64,000 nucleotides of DNA from Trileptium ribeirensis (Eukaryota > Nematoda > Enoplea > Enoplida > Thoracostomopsidae), in contig JASANE010020362.1 of assembly GCA_030248225.1 (NCBI GenBank), forward strand, positions 48,593 through 112,592, written 5' to 3'. Position numbers and translations under genes: made by a program. Below the pieces are notes generated by a model. It saw nothing but the letters and a program-made list of their open reading frames with translations. It searched no databases and was not told the origin of the DNA. Positions 37,820 through 63,600 of the stretch are shown in pieces. Numbering within the stretch: position 1 is the first letter of the stretch; each line of letters opens with the position of its first letter.

Positions 37820-40800
37820 AATTATAATTATGAAATTTGTGAACCCCTCAACGCACTCCGACGAAAGGACAGTGAATTTAAGTGGACACCGCAATGCGAG
37901 GAGGCATTCGGAAAACTACGTAAGGCCTTGGTACAAGAACCATTACTCATTTATCCGGACTTTTCCAAGCCTTTCATACTCCAAACAGACGCTTCAGGAT
38001 ATGCCCTAGGAGCCGTGCTTTCACAAAAGACCGACAAAGGGACACTACCTATCGCCTACGCGAGTAAATCACTTGTGGACTATCAACGCCGATATCCTGC
38101 CATAGAGACGGAGGCTCTTGCCATTCGGTGGGCTGCCTTACACTTTCGACACTACCTACTTGGACACGAATTCCATGTTGAGACTGACCACAAGCCACTT
38201 AAAGCACTATTCGAGAGACCACCGCGAAATTCGCGACTAGCTCAATGGCGTAACGAATTGCTGATGGAATTCGGTGGTTTTAACATCGAATATCGACCAG
38301 GCAAGGCAAATGCCAACGCAGACGGACTTTCACGTGATCCCCGACATGATGTGGAATTTTCCTACTCCTCGGACGAGGCTGAACAGGATGAACAGGACCA
38401 TCCTCGAATGGTCGCCGTAGCTGTCAAAGGACAGGATCGCGGTAAAGGCAAAGCTCCAGCTAAACCACCCCGACGATTTCCCACCGAGGAAATATGGAAA
38501 CGACTTACGCGACAACTCTTAGGACTTCCACCGGACGCTCCTGTTACCCTACCACCCGAGTACGTTAGAGAACGTTTCTATCGTATGTTCGGAGGATCCG
38601 ATCATGACCCCCTACCGGATCCGACACGTTTCATCTTCTGCGGAGACATAGACGACCCCTGGCCCGAAGGAGTTGAGATCCCCGGGAGACGGACGACTGC
38701 CCCAGGACCACCAGAGTCCACTGATAAACCGACCCACACACCATCTTCTGCACCCGAACCACCCGCCGAACCCCCGCAACCTCAAGAACCCCCGACCGCT
38801 CCGACACCGCCTGCTCCAATCGCGGCGAGTGAAAGCTCAACTCGCGCCACAGCTGGTACACCTGAACCCGCTAGACCGCAGACGCTACCGACAGCTGCTA
38901 GACAAAGATATGGAGGCTTACCCGAAGTAGAGGAATTTGACACATTAATTAAGGTTGCTTACGCATGTGGACCACGAATACAATTACAACGCCCTGAACA
39001 GGTCTATGACACTGGAGAACACATATACTTACCACACTTTCAACAATACGAAGGGAGGAACCTTCTCAATTACCTACCATACATTCAACGCAGAGATAAA
39101 CAATTTGGTCCTATTTGGTGGTATTTACACACACGACAGTCGCCTGCCGATGAAAAGGCAGCGACCGCCCTCAAATTGGAAGCCCATCATTACAGGCTTT
39201 GCCCCGACACTGCTATTCTATACTTGCATCCCATTATGCCAAATGACCACCGACCCAAACTATGCGTACCTAGACTACTCATTCGACAGATACTCAAACA
39301 CGAACACGACACATTATTTGGTGGACATCCAGGTAGAGATCGTCTGCTGAGCAAACTCAAGCAATTCTACTACTGGGAAACCATGGGTAAGGACGTGGAC
39401 GAATATGTCAAGCGATGTGTACTCTGCCAACGATCACGCAACCTACCTCAAAATGTTCGAGCCGCGCTCGGAGAGAACCCGTTGGCTAGTGCGCCCATGC
39501 ATCGCATGTTTGTCGACATACTGGACACTCGGGTGTTATCCCGCAACGGAAACAGGTACGTAATTGCCTTTATCGACCAGTTCACAAAACTAGTAATCGC
39601 CGCTGCGTTGCCGGACCAAACCGCCAAAAGCGTCGCCAAGGTCTTTGTCGAAGACGTGGTGTGTCGCTACGGCGCACCCGAGGAGCTAGTCTCAGACCGA
39701 GGCGGATGTTTCGTCTCCGAAGTAATGGAAGCCTTGTGCGCCAGACTACATACATTTAAGCGTGAAACGCTCAGTTACAACCCGAAGGCAAATGGAGAAA
39801 TCGAACGTTTTAACCGTACCCTACTATTCCTCCTGAGAGTAGCATTACCTGAAAAGGACCATACTACATGGGACGAAGTCCTGCCGTATTGCATCATGTC
39901 CTACAATTCAGCAGTACACGCTTCCACGCACTATCCACCATTCATGCTCATGCACGGATTCCAACCCCGAGTACCGGGTGGAATCGAAACGCAAACTGAT
40001 TGGGGACGCTACCCCGGAGCAGAAGCATATCGCGCTAACGTGCAACGATGGTTAGCCACCATCAGGGATCGAGCCTATCGATCCATGCAATCCGCTCGGG
40101 AATACAGAAAACGCTATTACAACCGCAAGATTAAGGTCCCGGACTACCGCGTTAACGACCATGTATGGGTCTATCGATATTATACCACCCCAGGCTTATC
40201 GCGCAAGTTAGAACGCCGATGGTGTGGACCATACCAGATTACCAAAATAATGCTACCTTGCATTTGTGTTAAGCTCCCCGGACAACCTAATGCTTCTGAC
40301 CATGTAGTTCACATAAATCGCACCAAACCATGCTATCGCCCGCTAAGCAGCTTCCCTGACATGGCCGATCTGCTAAAAGCCGTCCCTCCCGCTTATATTG
40401 AGGCTGCGCTACAGGAACCTGGAGAAACTATCCTCGCTGACAAATATTTCGCTAGGGAATTACAGGCTGCAGACCCAGAAGCAGTCGACCGGTTGCGCCA
40501 GGAGATTGATGGTGCCTCCGACGTCGCCAGTGTAGAAATCGGAGAACCTAACTTAGAATACACGCAAGCTCAGGCAGATATACACCGTGCCGCAGTAGAA
40601 CAGTTAACCATTCAAGCCCAAGACTCCTCCGGAGCCCCGCAACAAAATAGGCTTCCCCTCTGTGACCCTGACAGAACCCCGGACACCGAATGGCCCGCTA
40701 TATCACAGGAACTCGCAACCCAGGACTCCGCTAAGTTACCTTACGCACTGGATAAACCACCAGGTACTTTCTCGCCTGAGTATGGACAACACACCGCCCC

Positions 40801-42610
40801 AGTAACCCTACGAGAGCAGGAACGAGCCGTTCGGACTGATGAGGCTACAAGGCCTCTAAAGGTAAAACGATTAGACCCCGAACGCGCACTGCGACCATTC
40901 AATGCAAACGACCTCGGTCTTGTGGAATTACTCGCTTCACAGGACCCGGACGAAGACTCGCCTCACACTCCAGAACAAGCAACATCCCCAACGTCAGCAG
41001 TCGAACATGCTGTCCAAACTTCGCCCCTTACGCCCGCCCAACGCCGAGCCGCAATCGCCACTCAAACATCCCGCAGTCCTCAGACACAACACTTAACGAG
41101 CAAAACAGACCAGCCAGTAACACCATACTACACCTATTATGAGCATTCAGCGCCTTACGAACAACCCTATTCCATACCTCGTCAGGCATATTCCGCCCCA
41201 CCTACACCACTTCCACACACTCCCCTGATGCCACAAGGATTTGAAGCCACCATAGAGGACTACGTTCCAGATGAATGGCTCACGCCATATCGCACCCCTC
41301 CAAGGCCACAACCCGCGCAATCCGTCCCAGCAACCAGCCAACCTCCACTGGAACCCGCGCCAACACCAAAACCTAAGCCTAAACCACGACGAAAACCAAC
41401 TAAGGTTCCCGCGCCGACTAGTGAACAAGCATCATCTATAAGCTCGGAGACCACCTCACCGGAAACAACCGATTTCCCGACACCGCCTCAACGATGGATA
41501 ATCCCACCACTGCTATCACCCTTGCAGGAACGGGGAACCAAAGATCCACAGGTACCATCCTTTGGTCGATGGACCACCCGAAGACAAAACGAACTAGCAC
41601 AATGGGAATGGGAAATGCAGGAAATAAGAAGGAAACGAGAGGAAGCCGCCCGCGCCCGAGGAGAAATACAGGATGCAACCGAACTAATGGAATACTTAAG
41701 AGGATCCCCCATACAATACATTCCCTCGGAAGACCAAGTAGCTGCCGATGGGATTGTAGAAGAATTTATTCAAAGTTTAGCTCGACAACGAGAAGCAAGT
41801 AAGCAACGTCGACCTTCCGAGTCTTCGGAAGGCGGTCGACCGAAACGATTACGACCACGGACCGTAGACAAGGACAATGAGACAATATCAACCATTGGCG
41901 AATCAACCAAAGGCTCCTCTACCGGGAGGAAGGGAAGAGCGCCGCCGCGTAGCGCTCCCTCCACCCTCAAGGGAGTCCTAACTCGACCATCACGCGCCAA
42001 ACCACGCCGACAAACCCCAGCTAGAGCCCAATCACAAGTTAGTTGGGAAGACGAAGAGGACGAGGTACCTCTTAGTCAACTTTTACCGGGACCCCGGCGA
42101 AGGCCCCACTTTGAACTCGATCCTCCAACAGAGGAGAGCGAGGGATCTCCTGAGATGGGACCCTTTGCACCCGAGGTTAAAGAAAGGGAAGAACCCCCTC
42201 AACCCGTTCGCCGACAACCACATAGACAAGCCAGGGACCGTTATCGCTGGTATGAAGACTATTTACCCCACGGAGAAGAAGCTCGGGTCATAATACCACG
42301 TTTGGACACCCGACGATTGGAACCCAAAATTACGACACCAGCTCGACGGACTATACCCCTCGCTCCACCGACTCGACATCGTGACCCTGTTATGCCGATG
42401 GATTATCCATCTGGTAGTGCTCGTGCACGGCACGACATGTTTGAACCTTTTAGGGACATCTTTGATGAACAGGACATCGAGGACATGTTATCCGCACATC
42501 CGGACTTGGAACCCGACGAAGACAGTGAACAAAGACAATTACGACCTGAAGATATCGGACTAGAAGTGGTCCGACCTCCGAGACAACCGCCTCGCGAGCG
42601 ACGGTTGTAA
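37820..42610 (+). CDS. pol: Ty3/gypsy retrotransposon pol polyprotein, 5'-truncated (RNase H, integrase, long proline-rich tail)
   Basis: This is the replicative polyprotein of a Ty3/gypsy LTR retrotransposon. The frame is open from 37820; sequence from about 37841 matches the end of reverse transcriptase, so the Met at 37928 is internal and gag, protease and the RT catalytic core are missing. Counting from that Met: RNase H at 11-138 with D21 (QTDAS), E60/E62, D87 (TDHKPL) and D132; proline-rich insert around 255-322; integrase zinc finger H460, H467, C497, C500; integrase core D530, D590, E626 (DD35E); GPY motif near 767-769. Residues from about 820 to 1560 are a low-complexity tail rich in P, R, E and Q with no domain I recognise. 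No frameshift interrupts 1590 codons. The NADAR frame follows in the same phase after one TAA. RNase H and integrase motifs make the family certain; the tail's role is unknown. Confidence 0.93.
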   Translation, partial: NYNYEICEPLNALRRKDSEFKWTPQCEEAFGKLRKALVQEPLLIYPDFSKPFILQTDASGYALGAVLSQKTDKGTLPIAYASKSLVDYQRRYPAIETEALAIRWAALHFRHYLLGHEFHVETDHKPLKALFERPPRNSRLAQWRNELLMEFGGFNIEYRPGKANANADGLSRDPRHDVEFSYSSDEAEQDEQDHPRMVAVAVKGQDRGKGKAPAKPPRRFPTEEIWKRLTRQLLGLPPDAPVTLPPEYVRERFYRMFGGSDHDPLPDPTRFIFCGDIDDPWPEGVEIPGRRTTAPGPPESTDKPTHTPSSAPEPPAEPPQPQEPPTAPTPPAPIAASESSTRATAGTPEPARPQTLPTAARQRYGGLPEVEEFDTLIKVAYACGPRIQLQRPEQVYDTGEHIYLPHFQQYEGRNLLNYLPYIQRRDKQFGPIWWYLHTRQSPADEKAATALKLEAHHYRLCPDTAILYLHPIMPNDHRPKLCVPRLLIRQILKHEHDTLFGGHPGRDRLLSKLKQFYYWETMGKDVDEYVKRCVLCQRSRNLPQNVRAALGENPLASAPMHRMFVDILDTRVLSRNGNRYVIAFIDQFTKLVIAAALPDQTAKSVAKVFVEDVVCRYGAPEELVSDRGGCFVSEVMEALCARLHTFKRETLSYNPKANGEIERFNRTLLFLLRVALPEKDHTTWDEVLPYCIMSYNSAVHASTHYPPFMLMHGFQPRVPGGIETQTDWGRYPGAEAYRANVQRWLATIRDRAYRSMQSAREYRKRYYNRKIKVPDYRVNDHVWVYRYYTTPGLSRKLERRWCGPYQITKIMLPCICVKLPGQPNASDHVVHINRTKPCYRPLSSFPDMADLLKAVPPAYIEAALQEPGETILADKYFARELQAADPEAVDRLRQEIDGASDVASVEIGEPNLEYTQAQADIHRAAVEQLTIQAQDSSGAPQQNRLPLCDPDRTPDTEWPAISQELATQDSAKLPYALDKPPGTFSPEYGQHTAPVTLREQERAVRTDEATRPLKVKRLDPERALRPFNANDLGLVELLASQDPDEDSPHTPEQATSPTSAVEHAVQTSPLTPAQRRAAIATQTSRSPQTQHLTSKTDQPVTPYYTYYEHSAPYEQPYSIPRQAYSAPPTPLPHTPLMPQGFEATIEDYVPDEWLTPYRTPPRPQPAQSVPATSQPPLEPAPTPKPKPKPRRKPTKVPAPTSEQASSISSETTSPETTDFPTPPQRWIIPPLLSPLQERGTKDPQVPSFGRWTTRRQNELAQWEWEMQEIRRKREEAARARGEIQDATELMEYLRGSPIQYIPSEDQVAADGIVEEFIQSLARQREASKQRRPSESSEGGRPKRLRPRTVDKDNETISTIGESTKGSSTGRKGRAPPRSAPSTLKGVLTRPSRAKPRRQTPARAQSQVSWEDEEDEVPLSQLLPGPRRRPHFELDPPTEESEGSPEMGPFAPEVKEREEPPQPVRRQPHRQARDRYRWYEDYLPHGEEARVIIPRLDTRRLEPKITTPARRTIPLAPPTRHRDPVMPMDYPSGSARARHDMFEPFRDIFDEQDIEDMLSAHPDLEPDEDSEQRQLRPEDIGLEVVRPPRQPPRERRL

Positions 42611-42733
42611 CGTTTAAATCACTCGAGAAACACCCCAGAAAACTCGAGCTCCCGCCACCAAACTCCCTCAAGAGCCGCCACTAATGGCGATGAATACTAT
42701 TGCAGGAATCACCAATTCAAAGGACTCGACGAC
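42608..42733 (+). other. Single TAA and 41-codon open linker between pol and the NADAR frame
   Basis: TAA at 42608-42610 is the only stop between the two long frames. The next 41 codons stay open in the same phase up to the ATG at 42734. Readthrough, a recent nonsense change, reinitiation or a spliced mRNA could each explain it. CTAAT (42681-42685) followed by TTGCAG (42700-42705) could act as branch site and 3' splice site just before the ATG, though the pyrimidine tract is poor. Confidence 0.85.
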
Positions 42734-43867
42734 ATGGAACAATTTCCACAACCTCGAGTGCCGTACTACACTATCAATTATGATGCGCCGATGGAAACGT
42801 TCCTGTCCAAAGGTACACATTGGCCAGAACTCTCCAACATGGCTCCGTTAGGCCAAACCGTCACCCAATACCCCATCGAATACGCCTCGACGGAGCAAGG
42901 CTACCAGCTCCTCGTCACCTATTTATTCGACGAGGAGCAAGCAAAACAAGACATTTCAGACCTGAAACTGGGAGCTCGAGACGTCAAGGCCATCTCCCGA
43001 CGAAACAAACAAAAGTTCCTCGACCCCGAAACAACCGAGCGCCTCCGCCCAGTACTCCCTCACCTCATGCGGACGGTGCTGCTGGAAAAATTCAAAATTC
43101 CCCGCTTCAGGGACGCCCTGCTAGCCACCGGATTTGCCCAATTGCTAGAGGCAAATAAATCCGATTCCTTTTGGGGAATTGGCCTAGGGCCGGAGGACAT
43201 TAAATTCGGCAAACGACCGCGACCATGTCACAACGTTATGGGTAGCCTATTGGAGGAGGTTCGATCCTTCCTCCGTCACAACGTCGCCTCCTGGCCGACT
43301 GTTTTGATTTTGGGCGACTCTTTAGCGGCGCCCTTGGTCAACATGGCCGCTTCGAAAGGGTGGTTCGCCCTGGCTTGGCCGGGAGCCACCATGCAATTCT
43401 TGGTTCGGCTGGCGACGTGCATCGCGACGCCGCAAACCAAGACAATCATGATCCTCGGCGGCTATAAAGCGGCCCTACGAACCAAGCCGCATGAAGGCCG
43501 TTTGCTGGACACGCCCAGTAAGGTCATGCGTCGAGTGCGCCGATATATATGCTCATTCGACTACCTACTCGGTGATGGAGCCCGAGCCGTCATCGCCCCG
43601 CCCCCATCGCATTGGGACCTCGGACAGGACGATACGGTAGGATGGCATGACGAGTTTACCAAGATATTTCAGGACATTAAATGGCAATTCCCCGACAGGA
43701 TACAGAAATCGTCGATGCCAGACTACCCACCCGAACTAGAAGAATCGGGCGCATGGGAAACCCTTACCGACGGCGACGAAATTGCGGAGCCTCGCGTAAC
43801 CGAACCCTACATAGGGTGCTTTCGTAAATGGGTTCAACTGAACTTAGTATCTGACAGTTGGGCTTAA
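42734..43867 (+). CDS. Retrotransposon accessory protein with NADAR (YbiA-like) domain and SGNH/GDSL-like domain
   Basis: 377-aa open frame in the env position of the gypsy element. Residues about 20-178 match the NADAR fold by motif: LSN (33-35), the STEQGYQ helix with the likely catalytic Glu54, KF (119-120), LLATG (129-133), then LLEANKSDSFWGIG (137-150) and NVMGSLLEEVR (167-177). The family includes N-glycosidases that cut riboflavin-pathway intermediates (YbiA type) and enzymes that remove ADP-ribose from guanine. Residues about 187-315 resemble an SGNH/GDSL hydrolase: GDS with Ser196, Gly217 in AWPGATM, and a late Asp/His (DDTVGWH, His305). The expected block III Asn is replaced (GGYK, 242-245), so hydrolase activity is doubtful. 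I see no signal peptide or membrane segment, so it is not an envelope glycoprotein. Base composition matches the pol frame, suggesting long residence in the element. NADAR identity is quite sure; substrate and role are unknown. Confidence 0.82.
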   Translation: MEQFPQPRVPYYTINYDAPMETFLSKGTHWPELSNMAPLGQTVTQYPIEYASTEQGYQLLVTYLFDEEQAKQDISDLKLGARDVKAISRRNKQKFLDPETTERLRPVLPHLMRTVLLEKFKIPRFRDALLATGFAQLLEANKSDSFWGIGLGPEDIKFGKRPRPCHNVMGSLLEEVRSFLRHNVASWPTVLILGDSLAAPLVNMAASKGWFALAWPGATMQFLVRLATCIATPQTKTIMILGGYKAALRTKPHEGRLLDTPSKVMRRVRRYICSFDYLLGDGARAVIAPPPSHWDLGQDDTVGWHDEFTKIFQDIKWQFPDRIQKSSMPDYPPELEESGAWETLTDGDEIAEPRVTEPYIGCFRKWVQLNLVSDSWA

Positions 43868-44536
43868 CAATTTAGGAAGAAACTCCGACAACACCACATG
43901 GACACTGGCTATTCGGAAAATTTTCTTGTCAATACGAACTACCAAACGCACTTGAGGTGAACCCAAAACCGATGTGTTATAACGATATTATATTTGTATA
44001 ATCAGATGTAGGAACAACAGTATAAATGCCGTATTTAACCACTTATTTTAATCCTGTATCCGTTGCATAATGTATATCTGTCTATGCATAACTTCTACCA
44101 TGGCACCTTGGCTAAATCAAACAAGTTGGATCATCTCGGAAAATTCTTTGAAAACTTAGTGCAAAGTCCTTTTCGTTCCCTAAAAAATATAAGAGGAGGA
44201 CTTTTTTTCGGACCGGAATTCTCAAACAGAAACTTTCAAAATTATGTATGGCTAAGACCAACGATGGTGATAAGACATCTCGACGATAAATATAAATATA
44301 AATTAAATTAGGAAACCGGAATTTTCAAGTATCATATCTCATCAGGTTATCTGTATATGGACTAATTTATTATTGGGTCGTAGAGTATAGGTTATTTTTC
44401 AGAACCAGGCACGATCCTTTTTTTGGAGACCCCATTATAGGCGAAAAAATTTTCATTATCTAGACAACAGAGGAAATTGCTTCCAACCCGAGTAATTAAG
44501 TCCGAAAATTTCCATTTAAAAATATAAGAGATGTAA
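43868..44536 (+). other. Region downstream of the NADAR frame, probably 3' untranslated sequence
   Basis: AT-richer than the coding part. An 82-codon frame at 44063-44311 has no motif. A purine-rich run AAGAGGAGGA at about 44191 could be a polypurine tract, but no LTR start is evident after it. Confidence 0.4.
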
Positions 44537-44689
44537 CAGGCTCGTTCCGACCCGTTACGCTTATTTTTCATGATTTCGGCGCCAAAATGACCCGAACGCG
44601 CCTTAAATCGAACCAGACACAGTTACTGGAACTAAGTTTTCATGTGGTGCAGGGTGCCATGGTTTGTTAACTATATTATTCTGCTTGCT

Positions 44690-44760
44690 AACCTTGCTTA
44701 TTAACATTGATTGCCTATTTTGTAACCCTGCTTATTAACATTCATTGCCTATCCTGTTTG
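44690..44760 (+). repeat. Two-copy 33 bp tandem repeat
   Basis: AACCTTGCTTATTAACATTGATTGCCTAT and AACCCTGCTTATTAACATTCATTGCCTAT lie head to tail, at the place where the other copy of this repeat (61.2 kb) carries a large tandem array. Confidence 0.8.
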
Positions 44761-46420
44761 CTATAACCCATTGTTTTTCTGTATGCGTTATCATTGCATG
44801 TATTATTTCGTGTCTTGGGTTTTCCCGGAACCGGATGGACGGAATGCGTGGTATAAGGTGAAAGTGTAACTTGATCGGAGTTTGGCTTGGACTGAAAAGT
44901 AGGAGCTGTTGTAGGCTCTGAGCATGTCTTCGGAACTCGACGGCCCGCCGCAACACACACAAGAAAATTCAAAATTTAGACCGTCCGGGAATAGGAGGCC
45001 TCTGACGATTTAAGGGGTCGGGAAGTAATCAAAATCAAGACTCTCAATTTTACCTGGTTCAAAGTAAACCATAGCTTAATGGTCGCAGAAGTAAGCTGAA
45101 ACAAGTGGGTTACGGTAGTTTCCGAGTATTCGGAAATAACGGACCTCGGGCCTGTTTATCGGCCCGTAACCGTCCAACGGTTCAGATTTACCGGAAATGC
45201 ACCGAGTACTTTTCGGTAGAGAATTTTCAGGGCTCTCGAACGAGCCCCAGACATCGCAAATCGCTGGAGGATTTCACGAGATATCCTGGGGACAAATAGG
45301 TGAACATTCAATCAACAGCCAATACTTACGCTAGGTTTGGTTGGTGACCATGGTCCCGAGTGGACCTGACATAGGCATATATGGATATATAATTATGTAT
45401 ATATGTAGATATGTGTGTGCTGCCTGATCTTCGTGTCTCGGTATGTCTATTTTCCCGCCCCCACCGTATCAGAACTTTTATCTTTATAGCATCCGTTGAC
45501 GCCCAAAATGGCCTGACCCGCACCCTAACAACCGGTTTTCTGGTGACCATCGGATCACTGATTGAAAGTATGCGTGTTTCTAAGTAGCGTATCCATTTAG
45601 GCATCTGACGAGGCCAGGCGGGTCTCGATCAGACCAGTCCTCCCGCTGCCATATAGATTACTTCCCTGTTCTATAATGCACCACGAAAATTCAACATAAA
45701 ATTCCTTCAGTTTGTACCAACTCCGTATTTGACCACAGACCCTAAACGTGCTCATGCGACCCCTCATTTTATTTGTCTGCTCCTGGCGAGCACAACGATA
45801 TCCGGCGGGTCTTTGTCCGCCTTCGCGTTAGCCTCTTATGACCGATAATGTGCCCCCCCCAATTTGGCCTACCGACTGCAAGTGGGTACAGACCGACCGA
45901 AAATTTAACCCCAACTCAAAGGTAGGCATAATGCCCCTCATTGCATTCGTCGCGTCGAGACATCTTCAACGATGCCCGGCGGGTCTCCATCCGTCGCCCC
46001 GTTAACCCGGGACGGCCGAAAATGCGCCCCCACTTTTTGCCGACACTCTCTTTAACGGTCTTTAACAGTCGTGATTTTAGTGCCCCTCTACCCGCTGCCG
46101 TTAAGGTAGGGAAAACACCCCTCGTTTGAATCGCCTTTCCAAGGCGAGTTCAACGATGTCCGGCGGGCGTCGCTCCGCCCAACCGTTAGAGCGGGAGAGC
46201 CCGCTGAAACCCCGTATGCTAATATATGTCGGAACCCAAAATTGGGTCCCGACCCGCCACTGCGTCTACCCCCCTCGTGTTTGGTATCATTCAGCCCCGT
46301 TTTTCGTCCTGGGACCGAATTTCGCCCCAGCCCCTCGAAATTCCCTCGGGAACCCCCTGTCCCGACTCCCTTCCCTGTCCTTTCTTTTTCGTTTTCTTTT
46401 TCTTTCTTTCCACTCTCTCT

Positions 46421-46441
46421 AACCGACTTCTTTGGTCGGTT
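46421..46441 (+). other. Conserved stem-loop 1 of the gypsy-associated repeat
   Basis: AACCGAC and GTCGGTT form a 7-base-pair stem with a 7-base loop. The second copy (63211-63231) keeps both stem halves while the loop differs. Confidence 0.6.
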
Positions 46442-46489
46442 GTCGTCGTTGCTGTCGCCATGTGTGTGTGTGTAAGTGTGTGTATGTGC

Positions 46490-46526
<37 letters not shown>

Positions 46527-46527
46527 G
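46490..46527 (+). repeat. (TTG)n microsatellite
   Basis: About twelve TTG units; leucine or glutamine runs in the frames across it are artefacts. Confidence 0.95.
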
Positions 46528-46574
46528 GGTTGTGCTAATGTCGTTGTGGTTCTGCATGTTTCTAGTGTGGCCTC

Positions 46575-46594
46575 GAGCGACCTTTCTGTCGCTC
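46575..46594 (+). other. Conserved stem-loop 2 of the gypsy-associated repeat
   Basis: GAGCGAC and GTCGCTC pair around CTTTCT. In the second copy (63287-63314) the same hairpin extends to 11 perfect base pairs with the identical loop. Confidence 0.65.
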
Positions 46595-46662
46595 AGGTCG
46601 CCTGTGTGTCTCATGTGTAGTGTGTGCTCATGAGTATTGTATGTGTATGTGTTTGTGGATAT

Positions 46663-46663
<1 letters not shown>

Positions 46664-46701
<38 letters not shown>
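46664..46701. repeat. (TA)n microsatellite
   Basis: Uninterrupted TA units inside the gypsy-associated repeat. Confidence 0.93.
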
Positions 46702-46704
<3 letters not shown>

Positions 46705-47040
46705 TGTAGAACGACACAAAAAACAGGACATGTAGGGACAGGACATACAAAATTCCGTTAAATTTGTGAGTTTTACGGACGGACTGGACACATAGGAATA
46801 GGACTGACGGGGGGGCAGGTTTAGGGCCCTCCCGTGGGTTCCGGGAGTTTCTGAATGGGACCCCTGATAGGGCGAAAGATGCTTAGGATTGTGCTGTGCC
46901 CTAGAACACGAAATAAGTTCATTCCTGCCTTCGGTTCCCCCCCTTTGGGACGTCCAAAGACGTCCTGACGGGATATTTGAAATTTAGCTAGGAATGTCAA
47001 GAATGCTAGGAATGTTTGGCTTTATGTTGTAAGCCGACAT

Positions 47041-47067
47041 ATAAACGTGCAATGTTTGCACGTTTAT
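47041..47067. other. Perfect 12-bp hairpin
   Basis: ATAAACGTGCAA and TTGCACGTTTAT pair perfectly around the loop TGT. Confidence 0.85.
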
Positions 47068-47138
47068 CTATGGAGAGGGCGATAAAATTTAGCCCCAGAT
47101 GCCCTCCAAATAAGCTTAATTAGGTGATGGATGAGGCA

Positions 47139-47186
47139 GCTAACTCGCTAAATAGCAGAAATTTGGCTTTAAATCGGCGAGTTAGC
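47139..47186. other. 10-bp stem with 28-base loop
   Basis: GCTAACTCGC (47139-47148) and GCGAGTTAGC (47177-47186) are perfectly complementary, about 70 bases after the preceding hairpin. Confidence 0.75.
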
Positions 47187-49286
47187 TGGGGGAAAATTTG
47201 ATGGATGAGAACCAGAACGCGGAAAAGACATATTCTAGCTTATCTTGAATGCTTTGTAGGGGGAAAAGATTTAAAATTTTGAATATTTGACGGGTGATTT
47301 AACAGCTTTCATGGGACATTTGGGGGATAACGACCCAGTTAAGTTAGGTAAGAGATTTAAAAGATCTGAGTAATGAGTTTTCGACAAGTTTCTGACAAGA
47401 ATTTGGGACTACAGATGGGGTAAAATCGGAGATTTTGGAAGAAAACTCGCAGATGGTCGACCTCCGAGTAATCGGAGGGTTCAAATTTGATGTCGGCGAT
47501 TTCGATTGAAGCCGACTCTCTCTAACGGGGTCCCAGGGTTTACGATAGCTGTCAAAATCAAAATCTTGGGAATTTTTCGATTGGGCGCCCGGGTTTGACC
47601 TCGAAAAAGTGGGCGTCAAAAGAACGTCGCCGATTGGATGGCGACAAAATCGCCATGCTTCAACACAGCAGAAAATTTTGAAGCGACGACTACCGCGTCG
47701 TCTCTTCGAATCAGTTCGACTTCGGCAGCGCGGAGTTCGGTCGACTTTACTGACCGGCTCCGACGCTAGAGTTTTACTACATTGGTTTCGCAATTTGTTT
47801 CGCTTTTCCGTGCTTTGTGTTCGCTTTGCGTTTGGAATGGGATTCGACCGATGGAGGACCCGCGCAGACATCTTCCGTCTCGCGGAAGGGGACTAGCAGT
47901 TGCTGTCCCGGATCGAAGGTCGTAAGTCAGGAAGTGAACCAGGCATATGGGGGTTTATTTTCCCCAGATCAAGATGTAACAGACCATCAAACTTTACATG
48001 GCTATAGCGCAATTCGTAGTTTCAATGGTTCGACTGGACGCCCGTCGTGAGGTCGTCTGATGTATTCAGGTTGAGCTGTCACATTTTCACATGACTTTTG
48101 ACAAACCTCCTCCGTCGAGTTCCGTTTTGGGGACGTATTGAGTGATTGCACGGGGGGGTGTTAGGTTGTGAGCCTAAAAGCCGAAGTAGTTCTGATTCCC
48201 CGTGGTCATAGGTAAGGCAAATCAAAACGGACGCTTATCGTCCGCGCGCTTTTACATGACTTAGTACGTTTGAGTTAGGGCTGTTGAATTTTCCTGAGCA
48301 GACCACGGTAAAATTTACCAACGAAACACTAGGGATTTGCTTGTTTGTCTTTCCTTGGAGTTGTGGTTTGCAAAATTACAGTTTAGTAGACCGTTCGAGG
48401 CTCATGCCGCTGCTTGAGCTCGGACTGACGTTGCCGATAGGGACAGAGGGCTAGCCTCTGTCGGGCTTTAGGAAGCCCCAAAATTTTGCTTATCAGATCG
48501 AGCTAAGAAAATTTGGGGAAATAGAAAAGACCAAACAAATTTTAAGAACCTTAACCTGAGCATAAGGTGTTTTTGCTTTCTGATTGCAATGTTTGCCGTG
48601 TACAAAAATGGCCAGATTGCTTCAGCCTCATTTAGGACTTATTTGGTTATCACAAGAGAAGCATCAGTGCTCTGTCCGGAGTCCAGCGCCGACCGCCCGA
48701 ATCCATGACAGCCCCAATGACCCCCTAGCCTAAGCTCTAGCAGCAGATATTGCTACAAAATGTTTACTTCGAAACTGTCGCAACCAGGCTATAAAGTTTA
48801 CCAGGTTTCGCTACAACGCAGACTTGTGGTTAAGCTCGATGACAGTACGTAGGAAGCCCCGGGCGACCGAAACCAACTGACGGCATGGCCAAGTACCAAA
48901 ATCGGCCACAACAAATGCATTCAAAGGCACGTTAGGGTGCTCATTGTTCAAAATGAAATCATCATGCTCCCATTTTAAGAAAGAAAACTCGCGACCTCTC
49001 GCGAATCATTTTGGTCCCAAACCGAGTAAGTGCAAAACCCCGTTTTCTTTTCAGAGCGACTTGATCGCTGAGTTTAGGCATTTTTACATTTTATCTCTGG
49101 TTGCCCGTTAGGCTATGTACTATGTAGGCCCTTTCTCTGAGTTTTACTGTTTCGTCTCTCTCTCTTTTTCACTTTCCCTTGTTGAGTTTAGATCCTGCAC
49201 GGAGAATTTAAGTCCGCTGCAGATTTTTCCGTGTTGTCCACTCGACTATCGAGTTCTGGTAAATTTCATTAAAATTTTGGTGATAA

Positions 49287-49347
49287 CTCGACTGCACAAT
49301 TTCGATAGTGCAGTCGAGACACTGTACAATTTCGATATGTACAGTGT
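49287..49347 (+). other. Two abutting perfect stem-loops sharing the loop AATTTCGATA
   Basis: Hairpin 1 (49287-49318): CTCGACTGCAC pairs with GTGCAGTCGAG around AATTTCGATA. Hairpin 2 (49319-49347): ACACTGTAC pairs with GTACAGTGT around AATTTCGATAT. The stems are unrelated in sequence, but the loops match and there is no spacer. A smaller CTCGA-CTA-TCGAG hairpin lies about 45 bases upstream. Confidence 0.85.
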
Positions 49348-49377
49348 AGTAAGGTAATAGGATGAGCTCGATAGAGA

Positions 49378-49560
49378 GAGGACTGCAAAACAAAGGAAAC
49401 AACAGCAACAAAAAGGAAACAACAGAAATAAAGGAAACAATGGAAACACAAGGAACAGCAGAAACAACAGAAACGAAAGAAACCAAAAGAAAAAACCAAG
49501 AAAAGGAAACGGCACCAACCCAAAACCACCCCAAAAGAGGAAACCCCAAGCGAAACGAGT
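49378..49560 (+). repeat. A-rich imperfect (GGAAACAACAGAA)n-type repeat
   Basis: GGAAACAACAG / GAAACAACAGAAA phrases recur. The 69-codon frame rich in K, E, T and N and the long minus-strand F/S/V frames (90-113 codons) opposite are products of this composition. Confidence 0.7.
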
Positions 49561-51240
49561 CCCAGTTGTAGGACGGACACGGCAGTCCGTCAGAATGGTT
49601 GAAATTACGGCCTCGGTCGCTTAAGAAATCGCCAGAGAAAACAACTGTCCGTGTCTCGTATCTATCCAGCCGACCGAAATAGTAACCAGGGGCATCCCTG
49701 CAAAATAATTAAAACTCTATCCCCTGCCGACACATCATAGTGCAAGGGATACCCCGCCACCAAAATCAACCGCAGCGCCACCGGTCTACCGGTTATGGAC
49801 CAGTAGGACTTAGGATAATCGAATTCCCGGCCGAACCACTCGAACTGCGGAGACAGCGACTATTGGAGAATTAGTGAAGAACCTGGCCGTAGGACGACAT
49901 GAAATGAGTGACTTGTTAGGGACGCTAGGCAACCTTTGTAGGACAGGTAATGCACGCAGGCGTCTCGTTGTTCAAAGCAGGATTGCTCCCTTGTAATCGT
50001 TGACGGCTATCAGTGATCGAGTGCTCTGACAATGCAATAATCTGTACCATATTTGATTATTCTTCAATGCTACTGGTTTTTTTTATCTTGTATGGTAGGC
50101 CTACGCTTTTCCCGTACCCGAATCCATGCCCCGTCCTTGCTGTAACAAACCCATTCCCTTCCCCGCCTAGTTTTCGACGTGCCTGCACCGCCGCACGCTA
50201 TTACGGGCGAACTTCGAAGCACGCCAGACGCATGACTCGAGTGACAGCTGACTTAGCTAACGTTCAACGTGGAACGCCTCGGGTATAGATTCTGGTCCGG
50301 TACTACCGGGGACGACTTCGCTTGCGCTACCCCCTTCCTCTTTCGCACTGCTGGACAAGGGCACGAACGTTCGGACGGGCAGACTAGTACTACCGTAGTT
50401 TGTTTTCATGTGCGTATCTAGATAACTGTCCTTTGTTAACCGACACTGTATATGACTTTGAATAAATTCTTGAAAATTACTTGCTGTGTCCCGCGTTATT
50501 GAAATTTTGGCGTAATAAGCACGTCCACACGGACGGGCCGACCCATCGTGCCACGGCTTGCGGACGAAAATACCCCCAAGCCCTGACTCGATCGGTCCGC
50601 CACCTATGTTAATGTAATGTGTACCGGCATTGCAGCGAGAATGACTTACAGAGTTCTACTAGATCCTATTCGTGAAATTCGTACACGCAGATAAAGACAA
50701 AATTTACTAGGAAAACATAATCACTAGATATTAACACAATCAGATTATTAAGATGTGAACCAAGTAGTCCGACGTTAAACTCTTCAGGGACTGTCGGAAC
50801 CCTGTGGGGGCCATATGGCTACAGCGGATAAAGTGTTCGACCAGGAATAAACTCCCTGGAACTTAAAATTTACCTAGGAAACCTGGAGTATCACGCGTTT
50901 TCGCCTCAAATCACGCTGACAAAACAACTTCCGTTAGGCTAAGATAGGGAATATTGGTATGACATCATGACCTGTGAGCAGGTTTCGGTGTCAACCTCCC
51001 TGGGGGACCTCAGTGATCATACCAGAATACTAGACACGTGCGCAACCAATCGGGCGGGGTCCGAACACACCCCGTGAAGCGCGCCTGCGGCCTGCTAAGC
51101 TCCGTAACTTCTTGGGTCTGACCAAGCAAGGTGACTAAAATGGAAAATTTAGGGTCCGCCCTTGAGGTTATGATAGCCGGGGTCGTATGGGCATGGTGTT
51201 AGGAAGTTGCGCCATGCAGCTGCGTCACCGTTATTACAGA

Positions 51241-52691: not shown

Positions 52692-53708
52692 ATGGCAGCA
52701 CGTGGCAGACCTCAAAATACTAGATTTAACATTTCGCCCCTTAATACTATACTTCCTGAACCTGATATTATCAATTTGCGTATAACCTATAACCAAATGG
52801 TGCGTAGAACAAGTACATATGAAGATGCTATTGTTCTGCTTGCCCAATGGAGAATTATCGCTAACAACCAACAATGTACATGTGGCGACGCGATGTATTT
52901 GGCTGCGCGTACTGACCTCGCGCGCCTTGACAAATACGAACGGCGCTGTAAAAATTGCCGAGCCAAATTATCTATTCGAAGCGGCTCATTTTTGCCGGTC
53001 ACCGGAACGCATTGGATACGACACTCGTGATCATTTTCAGCTGCATCAACAACTGGCCGTCAAACTTCATTCGCTCGCCACAGATACCATTACGAACTGG
53101 AACAACTACTTTAAGGATGTCGATGTGCCTTACGACTGTGATCATTGGCAAAACAGCATGTTGGGTGGCCCCGGCATCGACGTAGAAGTTGACGAGTCGA
53201 AGTTTTTTCGACAAAAATACAACCGCAGCATGCCACGTCATCAACATGGTTTGGTGGTGGGCATGATTGAACGACAAACGGGCAAGTGTCTACTTTTCCA
53301 AGTTCCCAATAGCACCATCAACACAATCATGCTTCTAATATTTCAACATATCCGACCGGGAACCCGCATCATCACCGACAGCTTCCAGATCTACATCCAA
53401 GGGCTGCGCCGCCTACCTAGCCCCCAGCAATATACCCACGTTCAACCACCATAACCGCCAATTCCTTAATCCCACAGTCCCGACGCTCATACGCAAAACA
53501 GTGATGGTCTCTGGGGAAATTTGAAAACCTTCATTCGGCGACGCCAAGTGTTTCTCATAGCCTATTCCAGCGAACCCTTATTGAATTTCAGTGGCGACGA
53601 CAATTCGCTAAAAATATTGTCGGTGCACTCATTGCCCAAATCGGAAACATGTATCGCGTCCAGAGGTTAGTTCCAATGTCTGTAATACGTTTTCTTATAG
53701 AGTTCTAG
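52692..53708 (+). pseudogene. Merlin (IS1016/ISXO2-like) DNA transposase, frameshifted
   Basis: A DDE transposase of the Merlin superfamily, which is related to bacterial IS1016/IS1595 elements. The start at 52692 opens a frame with a zinc ribbon (CTC, then CKNC) followed by SIRSGSF. A frame change near 53030 leads to a W-containing helix (TNWNNYFKDV) and the core LGGPG.DVEVDESKF with the first catalytic Asp (53191-53193), then IITDSF with the second (53377-53379). Further frame changes near 53440, 53480 and 53550 are needed to follow AHTQNSDGLWGNLKTF and the C-terminal EFQWRRQF, ending at 53708. The third catalytic Glu is Asp in this copy (53503-53505). Total span equals about 339 codons, the normal family size, so it is nearly full length but inactive. 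No terminal inverted repeats were found. Confidence 0.88.
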
Positions 53709-53710
53709 AT

Positions 53711-53825
53711 TAAGCCTAACAAAATAAGCCTAAGCCTTAAACTAAGCCTAAGCCTGAGCCTTAGACTAAGCTAAGCCTAAGCCTTAGACTAAGCCTAAGC
53801 CTTAGACTAAGCTTAAGTCTAAGCC
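53711..53825 (+). repeat. TTAGGC/TTAGRC-like array, about 18 bp units
   Basis: TAAGCCTAAGCCTTAGAC repeats with variation about five times immediately after the Merlin stop. GCCTAA is the complement of TTAGGC, the nematode telomere unit. The following GGGGGCTGCCCCTCGGACCCCC is a different, GC-rich hairpin-forming block. More scattered CCTAA words continue to about 54000. Confidence 0.75.
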
Positions 53826-61770: not shown

Positions 61771-63286
61771 TGCATAACAATGTTCGCTTGTACTGTTTTA
61801 TAATTAGGGACGAGTGTTACCATTTGATGAAATTATAAGATCGTGAACTGCCCCTACCGATCTGTAAGGCCGCAGAAGAACCCCCACGCCAGTGGAAACT
61901 GGGAACTAGCCTAAAACCCAACCAGCAAACACTAGACGTTATAGGGTTGACAGTTATGACCGTCCGGGAATAGGAGGCCCCTGGCTGCACGTTCAAGAAA
62001 CCACGTTTATTAAGACCGAAATCAAAAATATTAAATTTACTTGGTTTTAGCAATATACTAAGCAATGGTCACGGAAAACAACAAGTCAAAAATAAGCGGA
62101 AACCGCACTTTTGGTAGTCTCCGCAAGCATGCGGAACGACGGATGCCGGGCTAATTCGAAGGCCCGCCGCCGTCTACGGTACCCTGATCACGGAACTAAC
62201 CAGAACAGACGGGTAGAACACTCTGGGAATGGTGAATGGACTTCTAAAACCGCCCCGGAAAACGCCAGAACTTCACTTGCAACGTATAGAAACAATCGCT
62301 ACTTACGCTAGGTGGGATTGTCACTGTGGATCCCGGACTATCACTTTCCATGTAGCTGGGGTATATCATATATAAAATATATGCGCATGTGTCTATCTAT
62401 GTGTGTGTCCTGTGGACAATTTATTAGGCAAAACCGCCTTGTTTCTGTAGTCTATTGTAGTATGTAACCAATACAAAACCCCCACCTTCCGACATCCCTG
62501 TCGCCATACCCTGCGTCAGAACCGGCGCATGCGACCCCTGGTTTTGTTCACCGCGACTAGTTGAATCCAACCATATGTGTCGAGCCTCCGCCCGAGTCCC
62601 TGCTGATCCGTTGCGGTCGCTGATCCGTTGCGGTCACCCAAAGATGCCAAAAAAAGCCGTTGCCGACTGCTGATGGGCACCGATAATTCGAGATTTCTCG
62701 CTCCACTCTAAAATGGGCGAACCGCCCCTCATTGGATTCGTCTCGACGAGACATTTCCAAAAATACCCGGCGGGTCTCGATTCGAAGCCCCGTTAACCCG
62801 TACGACCAACAAACGCGCCCCCCATTGTAGCCACGACTCTCTCTAACCGCACCAATTTTAGTACCGTTTTTACTCCGACCGCCCCAGTGGCAATGTCACC
62901 CCTCATTTAAAACGTCGTTGGACGTTGAGTCCAACGATACCCGGCGGGCGTCGCTCCGCCCAACAGTTAACGCAGGAGAGCCCGCTAAACGCCCCCATAC
63001 TTATACACATCAGAACCCATAAGTGGGTTCCGGCCCGCTATTACGTCCTTCCCCCTCGTGTTTGGTATCATTCGACCCCGTTTTCCGTCCTGGGATCGAA
63101 TCTGACCCCAGCCCCTCGAAAATCGCCCCGGATTCCCCTTGTCCCGCTTCCCTTCCCACTCCCGCCTCGTGTCCTCGCTGTCCTTTCGTTTCTGTCCTCG
63201 TTATCTCTCTAACCGACGTTTCTGGTCGGTTTCCTTCTTTGTTGATGTGTTGTTGTTGTGTCTGAGGTGTTACGAGTTTGTATTTA

Positions 63287-63314
63287 TCCTGAGCGACCTT
63301 TCTGTCGCTCAGGA
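63287..63314 (+). other. Conserved stem-loop 2, second copy (11-bp stem)
   Basis: TCCTGAGCGAC and GTCGCTCAGGA pair perfectly around CTTTCT, as at 46575-46594. Confidence 0.7.
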
Positions 63315-63600
63315 CGCCACTATGTCTATTGTGAGTGCATTGTGTGTATTTGTATGTGTGTATTTATATATGTTTATAAATATATATGTATGTATAGATA
63401 TCGATATGTAAGTATTATATATGTAAGGACACGACATAAGGATGGGCAGACAAGGACACGACACACAAAAATTTGTTAAAATTCAGAGTTTTACGGACGG
63501 ACTGGACACCGATAGTTAGGACGGACGGGGGGTGAGTTTAGGGTCTTCCCATGGGTTTTGGGGCACCCGAGCGGAGCCCCCACCTCACTAGGAGCTCTCT

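Follow-up and report, generated by a model that had tools for sequence, protein, structure and literature searches.

A NADAR-SGNH-like open reading frame under purifying selection downstream of pol in a giant Ty3/gypsy element of the nematode Trileptium ribeirensis

The role of eukaryotic NADAR proteins is described in the literature as largely open (PMC11125620), and NADAR domains are among those that have been reported from retrotransposons. A Ty3/gypsy lineage of Ectocarpus, Gypsy-12_Ec32, has a conserved YbiA-type NADAR domain, and a NADAR domain also occurs in an animal retrotransposon, the oyster Tx1 long interspersed nuclear element (LINE), although this is an element without long terminal repeats (LTRs) and the domain lies in its first open reading frame (ORF1), as the relevant parts of the same report describe (PMC12477816). 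Rotifer Vesta LTR elements possess an enzyme-like third ORF of the GDSL/SGNH type after pol, for which the available part of that report mentions no NADAR half (PMC5408684). Here we describe an ORF that likewise follows the pol gene of a Ty3/gypsy element but joins a NADAR domain to an SGNH-like half. The ORF, referred to as ORF3, lies at positions 42734-43867 of a 64,000-nucleotide stretch of the nematode Trileptium ribeirensis (contig JASANE010020362.1, positions 48,593 to 112,592), which we call the window; all features given by window coordinates alone are on its forward (+) strand. The reading that we favor, and to which we assign a probability of roughly one half, is that ORF3 is a selected accessory gene of a giant, multicopy element resembling the planarian Burro elements (see below), and that its product is an N-glycosidase with altered specificity which acts in counter-defence, with the SGNH-like half serving for targeting or as a weak esterase.

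ORF3 encodes a protein of 377 amino acids. A first-pass annotation of the window had reported an intact frame with a series of NADAR motifs, and both the frame and all four motifs are present (E54 in STEQGYQ, LLATG, D144..W147GIG and NVMG..LLEEVR). Judged from its profile matches, the identity of the first half as a NADAR domain is sure. Residues 30-181 (42821-43276) match PF08719 far above chance, with an E-value of 3e-16 and 60.5 bits against a curated cut-off of 35.1, which places the domain in the superfamily and bears out the NADAR assignment of the first-pass annotation. The same half is matched by phrog_1017 (E 2e-16) and by PDB entry 8bau, a solved NADAR structure (E 1.3e-4).

Many copies of ORF3 are present in the genome. 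The assembly (687,459,628 bases in 20,229 contigs) was searched with the 377-residue protein as query, and the best 109 of 2864 candidates were scored. These 109 matches, the window's own included, are 87-100% identical to the query over nearly its full length; 100 have no internal stop and nine have one. Selection was estimated from a sample of 28 copies free of internal stops, made up of the window's own, seven delivered along with the search results and 20 selected from the list of matches. The ratio of nonsynonymous to synonymous substitutions (dN/dS; Nei-Gojobori, ratio of means over 378 pairs) is 0.060 for the NADAR domain (residues 20-182) and 0.068 for the SGNH-like half (residues 183-320), with a median of 0.165 for the tail (residues 321-376) and a value of 0.64 (351 pairs) for the linker before the ORF3 start. 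In five copies that include pol, dN/dS is 0.003 for RNase H, 0.004 for integrase, 0.053 for a linker inside pol and 0.11 for the C-terminal extension of pol, and in the same five copies it is 0.061 for the NADAR domain, 0.064 for the second half, 0.47 for the linker before ORF3 and 0.20 for the tail. In the sampled copies both halves of ORF3 are under strong purifying selection, and the constraint is weaker than that on the core of pol. Of two signs among those that the first-pass annotation had named as speaking against it, neutral decay was not seen in the 28 sampled copies, and the frame was found in all 109 scored matches of a search beyond whose reach any copies without ORF3 lie. The ATG start codon of ORF3 is kept in all 28 copies.

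The second half of ORF3 (residues 183-320, 43280-43693) contains GDS (S196), PGA (G217), GGY at the place where GxN is expected, and WHDE (H305). S196 is present in all 28 copies, and S196, G217, the Tyr of GGY and H305 are invariant in the 12 copies that were aligned. If these motifs are assigned to SGNH blocks I, II, III and V, an assignment that is our own, the Ser, Gly and His residues of the blocks are present and the Asn of block III is not. A Pfam search with residues 181-377 returned no family at E <= 10, and a profile of the 12 copies matched no solved SGNH chain among the PDB sequences. Fold searches with a low-confidence model, however, ranked SGNH hydrolases first, and the SGNH identity of this half is likely but unproven. 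The GDS-containing SGNH-like half of the first-pass annotation thus stands as far as the GDS motif is concerned, whereas membership of the family has not been borne out by Pfam or by solved SGNH sequences.

Four residues of the NADAR active site carry the proposed function. The catalytic Glu pair, E54 and E139, aligns with the corresponding Glu residues of other NADARs and is kept in all 28 copies, as are D144 and W147; in published numbering, we infer, E54 and E139 would be the Glu of the SEQ motif and the last-strand Glu of the YbiA subfamily. Since these four residues are kept, the NADAR half would most likely still cleave the N-glycosidic bond of a ligand of the nucleotide or ADP-ribose type, either on the nucleic acid of the element or in its surroundings, and since a phosphate-binding Lys and a Trp of the pocket are gone, its specificity would be altered. 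The fold and the kept acidic residues speak for an enzyme, and the changed pocket speaks against the usual substrate. The ORF3 protein would be a two-domain accessory factor in which the SGNH-like half targets the protein to membrane or RNA or acts as a weak esterase, and as a whole it would act in counter-defence, against modifications that the host makes to the RNA or cDNA of the element. The literature proposes a role of this kind for the NADARs that animal RNA viruses encode (PMC9503650), and the Maverick-like elements with NADAR genes in this genome (see below) suggest a shared pressure. Two Gypsy elements from elsewhere also speak for the reading: P0040, whose polyprotein begins with a Macro domain (PF01661, a precomputed match), another ADP-ribose eraser, and, as a precedent, an orchid Gypsy element with an AlkB enzyme (PMC9289625).

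Several points weigh against this reading. The Lys located seven residues after the first Glu, which binds phosphate, is V61 in 28 of 28 ORF3 copies; the same position is Lys in all 16 non-Gypsy NADARs that were compared, as well as in YbiA and 8bau. In the account given of a characterized NADAR, this Lys is essential for efficient hydrolysis of ADP-ribosyl-guanine, Arg could replace it in vitro, and of the three catalyzing residues just two, the first Glu and the Lys, are described as largely conserved throughout the superfamily (PMC11543638). A Trp common to the 16 compared NADARs, which aligns with one Trp of YbiA, is also missing in the four Gypsy rows. The alignment behind these comparisons has 20 rows, namely four Gypsy rows and 16 non-Gypsy rows chosen by hand; the latter are 13 of 30 NADAR loci of the same genome (11 that we class as Maverick-type and two beside or like a helicase locus), two phage-type loci and the capping enzyme P0122. 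The other residues vary among the non-Gypsy rows too: in the four mavA rows neither the second Glu nor the W of D..W is present, and in P0122 the Asp is replaced by Ser. The longest branch in a tree of the 20 rows, with 2.74 changes per column, is that of the Gypsy rows, and at such a length long-branch joining is a risk. Because the substrate-binding Lys and the shared Trp are missing, hydrolysis of ADP-ribosyl-guanine by ORF3 is not assured; the reversal of ADP-ribosylation put forward in the first-pass annotation is still conceivable but is weakened by these two losses (for the Lys, see PMC11543638, as far as that account goes). In the second half, the Asn of block III is replaced by Tyr in 12 of 12 copies. 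Two structure predictions for ORF3 have a mean predicted local distance difference test (pLDDT) score of 39.8 and 43.4, and the NADAR half is too poorly modeled in them for comparison with the YbiA fold. The estimates of selection are subject to the sampling as well: choosing the best protein matches without internal stops biases the 28 copies toward good ones and favors a low dN, the use of ORF3 itself as query means that copies of the element without ORF3 could not show up, and the linker that serves as control has no true shared codon frame in eight of 27 copies. The splice acceptor proposed below is a candidate read from sequence alone, and ADP-ribosylation of nucleic acid by the host is a hypothetical premise.

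Foremost among the alternatives, and possible though on the unlikely side, is a non-catalytic role, in which the NADAR half serves for binding or as a scaffold and the SGNH-like half is a pseudo-esterase like that of Oskar, which binds RNA, the two together forming a ribonucleoprotein accessory protein. Such a role agrees with what the examined copies have lost, namely the Lys and Trp of the NADAR half and the Asn of block III in the second half, and with two published cases in the parts of the reports that deal with them: the key residues of NADAR1 of the nematode protein SNA-3 are not conserved (PMC9303266), and Oskar is named as a non-catalytic SGNH protein (PMC3905857). A pure scaffold, however, would not need E54, E139, D144, W147 and S196, which are invariant in all 28 copies, or H305, which is invariant in the 12 aligned copies. 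Going beyond the favored counter-defence reading, and rather doubtful as a whole, is a broader scheme in which the host puts ADP-ribosylation or another NAD-derived mark on nucleic acid as a genome defence, unrelated mobile elements (the giant env-bearing Gypsy element and several Maverick-like DNA elements) each took up a NADAR eraser of their own, and the Gypsy version moved to a different mark; the loss of Lys and Trp would be accounted for by such a move.

It is improbable that ORF3 is a metabolic aid, that is, a YbiA-type N-glycosidase which adjusts the pools available to reverse transcription by acting on nucleotide intermediates or on those of the riboflavin pathway. Pool enzymes have a precedent in the dUTPases of rotifer LTR elements, as described in part of the report on them (PMC5408684). 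ORF3 does match TIGR02464, the family of N-glycosidases of riboflavin intermediates, with an E-value of 4e-13, but its score of 49.9 bits is under the cut-off of 73.7 bits for that family, and the Trp that would align with that of YbiA is missing. As a rule, animals do not synthesize riboflavin.

How ORF3 is expressed bears on a further alternative. The pol stop codon (42608-42610) is separated from the ATG of ORF3 by 123 nucleotides and is kept in all 27 readable copies, as TAA in 26, including the window copy, and as TAG in one; the remaining copy, L018, is unreadable here as it ends at a contig end. ORF3 and pol share a reading frame in 19 of the 27 readable copies, among them the window copy, where this frame is open from 42611 onward, as would be expected if ORF3 were the end of the pol polyprotein, reached by read-through of an in-frame stop. 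In the other eight, indels in the linker place the ORF3 start in another frame. Because the pol stop is kept while the frame of ORF3 varies, a read-through fusion is contradicted as the shared mode of expression, and we consider this explanation very improbable. Under the favored reading, ORF3 would instead be translated from its own mRNA in the manner of a retroviral env gene. The linker contains a conserved acceptor-like element (42673-42706) in which 31 of 34 columns are invariant in 27 copies, versus 22 of 54 columns just upstream and six of 24 just downstream. It reads ACTAAT...TACTATTGCAG followed by G and contains ACTAATGGCGATGAATACTATTGCAG directly before that G, with a putative cut at 42705/42706, 28 nucleotides before the ORF3 ATG. 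In our reading this element resembles a branch point and a 3' splice site, which points to a separate spliced ORF3 mRNA; splicing at this site would occur in cis, or in trans to a spliced leader if the host has that process. Least probable of all is that ORF3 is functionless host DNA captured by chance, a reading in whose favor nothing was found and which is contradicted by the strong purifying selection across the 28 sampled copies unless that sample is badly biased.

The element to which ORF3 belongs is represented in the window by its 3' part. Similarity to three other copies starts at about 37830 and continues to the left only in those copies, and since the sequence left of this point has no match to other copies, the window copy is 5'-truncated. 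Its pol frame (37830-42610, within an open frame at 37820-42610) is cut inside the reverse transcriptase (RT), so that this copy is without protease, most of RT and the 5' LTR. It includes RNase H (PF17917, 37958-38260, E 2.2e-34) and integrase (39266-39751), the latter with matches to the H2C2 zinc-binding domain (PF17921, E 1.3e-19) and to the rve core (PF00665, E 2.4e-11), followed by a Pro-rich C-terminal extension of about 750 amino acids (40358-42607), the last 734 residues of which had no match in a Pfam search. ORF3 therefore does not lie directly after integrase, as first annotated, since the extension, the stop codon and the 123-nucleotide linker intervene. Downstream of ORF3, LTR similarity begins immediately after a putative polypurine tract (44518-44531), and the 3' LTR (44532-51238), of about 6.7 kb, runs from TGTAA to TTACA. 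Its limits are derived from flank comparisons in two other copies. The start comes from copy E (C18157), in which the two flanks of the coding region match from that point on, first in a 161-bp block at 72% and then at 88% over 2.8 kb, and the end comes from copy C (C11613), in which flanks match up to that point with 96% identity over 495 bp. Among the copies examined, none showed both LTRs whole. The distance from the end of the 5' LTR to the end of the 3' LTR in copy C is about 24.1 kb, and the full element would be about 31 kb if one LTR of 6.7 kb is taken from the window. The assignment to Ty3/gypsy follows from the order of protease, RT, RNase H and integrase in copies A and B and from the LTR similarity in copies E and C.

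Copy C has one frame of approximately 4,711 codons before the pol stop, as reckoned from the coordinates of two overlapping loci, a length near 5,000 amino acids. Its N-terminus is gag-like, with a CCHC knuckle at residues 352-367 and 28% identity over 301 amino acids to a relative, P0004, and about 1,600 amino acids without domain matches follow. Next come a furin-like REKR site and a hydrophobic, fusion-peptide-like stretch at 1977-2002. The same stretch recurs in copy E, where a further pair of hydrophobic segments (408-437 of the piece read) precedes protease, RT and RNase H. A profile search with two pieces of this region found no match to PF24664 or another env family; in P0004, a PF24664 fusion glycoprotein lies between the zinc knuckle and protease. 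These features point to an env-like segment in frame upstream of protease in other copies, and for that reason the NADAR protein appears to have been added to env rather than swapped for it, contrary to the initial placement of ORF3 where env would sit. A sub-threshold PAM2 match lies beside the gag zinc knuckle in locus L043 (2-6100, minus strand, residues 325-339).

Other NADAR genes are abundant in the genome. In a search with PF08719, 150 of 2317 candidates were scored, all of them above the cut-off at 123.7-140.6 bits; ORF3 copies are not among these 150, since ORF3 scores 60.5 bits. Of 30 loci examined (L051-L080), 26 fall into three repeat families with aligning flanks and four stand alone, and a panel of Gypsy pol proteins had no match in the flanks of the 30 loci (up to 1.5 kb). 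Neighboring genes were scanned in five of the 30 loci. A Pox_A32 packaging ATPase frame lies upstream of the NADAR frame at or above the cut-off in L054, L075 and L051 and below it in L065, and in L054 (NADAR at 1408-1935) a TBP frame lies downstream. L079 has an AAA_12 helicase frame (2-1213) directly before its NADAR frame (1330-2052) and no Pox_A32, and the NADAR of L067 is similar. On the contig of L064 (neighborhood L081), the 5 kb upstream contain an integrase core, a chromodomain and a 1006-amino-acid frame open at the edge, which has a sub-cut-off match to endonuclease VII. The packaging ATPase and integrase, which we take to belong to the Maverick/Polinton gene set, suggest that the high-copy NADAR loci are Maverick/Polinton-like elements; no match to polymerase B or capsid was seen in the scanned neighborhoods of the NADAR loci, and NADAR and Polinton were not found together as whole words in the literature searched. 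The protein P0122, from metagenome sources, is an mRNA capping enzyme of 1122 amino acids, with guanylyltransferase and N7-methyltransferase matches and a C-terminal NADAR domain, and could be a sign that NADARs act on the 5' ends of RNA.

Three other features were noted to the right of the element. A fragment of a DDE_Tnp_IS1595 (ISXO2-like) transposase (52786-53454, E 4.3e-7) is followed by a degenerate (TAAGCC)n array (53725-53825), which is a version of the TTAGGC repeat and may hint at a nematode host. Near the right edge of the window, 62663-63562 is approximately 67-73% similar to part of the 3' LTR (45872-46845) and is probably a second, diverged LTR family.

With a selected NADAR of changed pocket in a multicopy retrotransposon, and with several DNA elements of the same genome that also bear NADARs, it becomes a testable question whether ADP-ribose serves eukaryotes as a mark on foreign nucleic acid and whether parasites erase that mark. 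Among animal NADARs, a link to RNA metabolism is described for nematode SNA-3, which has three NADAR domains; unlike ORF3, SNA-3 is a host protein of spliced-leader trans-splicing, and the two were compared by description only (PMC9303266). The orchid Gypsy element, of 25 kb, carries in its extra ORF an AlkB RNA demethylase that is active in vitro and so also demodifies nucleic acid, but this enzyme is an N6-methyladenosine (m6A) demethylase with a fold unrelated to NADAR, according to the sections describing it (PMC9289625). A plan like that of the present element is known from the planarian Burro elements, which exceed 30 kb, encode a polyprotein near 5,000 amino acids as well as accessory ORFs, and are arranged as gag, an extra segment, an in-frame env-like segment, and protease, RT, RNase H and integrase. 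Extra domains of Burro include BIR, BCL2, MATH, ankyrin, SUMO-like, dUTPase and others, and the word NADAR does not occur in the main text of that report (PMC6431247). Our element is Burro-like by this analogy of plan, taken from the published description. In the literature searched there was no report of a separate NADAR-SGNH ORF after a Gypsy pol, and in its position ORF3 is indeed unusual, as the first-pass annotation had held; the presence of NADAR as such is less so, given the published Gypsy lineage and oyster LINE ORF1 (PMC12477816, in the parts that treat them). Compared, by description only, with the Ectocarpus lineage, the element of T. ribeirensis differs in that NADAR forms a separate ORF after pol, is fused to an SGNH-like half and belongs to an element of giant size that has an env-like segment as well. 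With NADAR in Gypsy already described from Ectocarpus in that same report (PMC12477816), the ORF3 arrangement is a variant of a known association.
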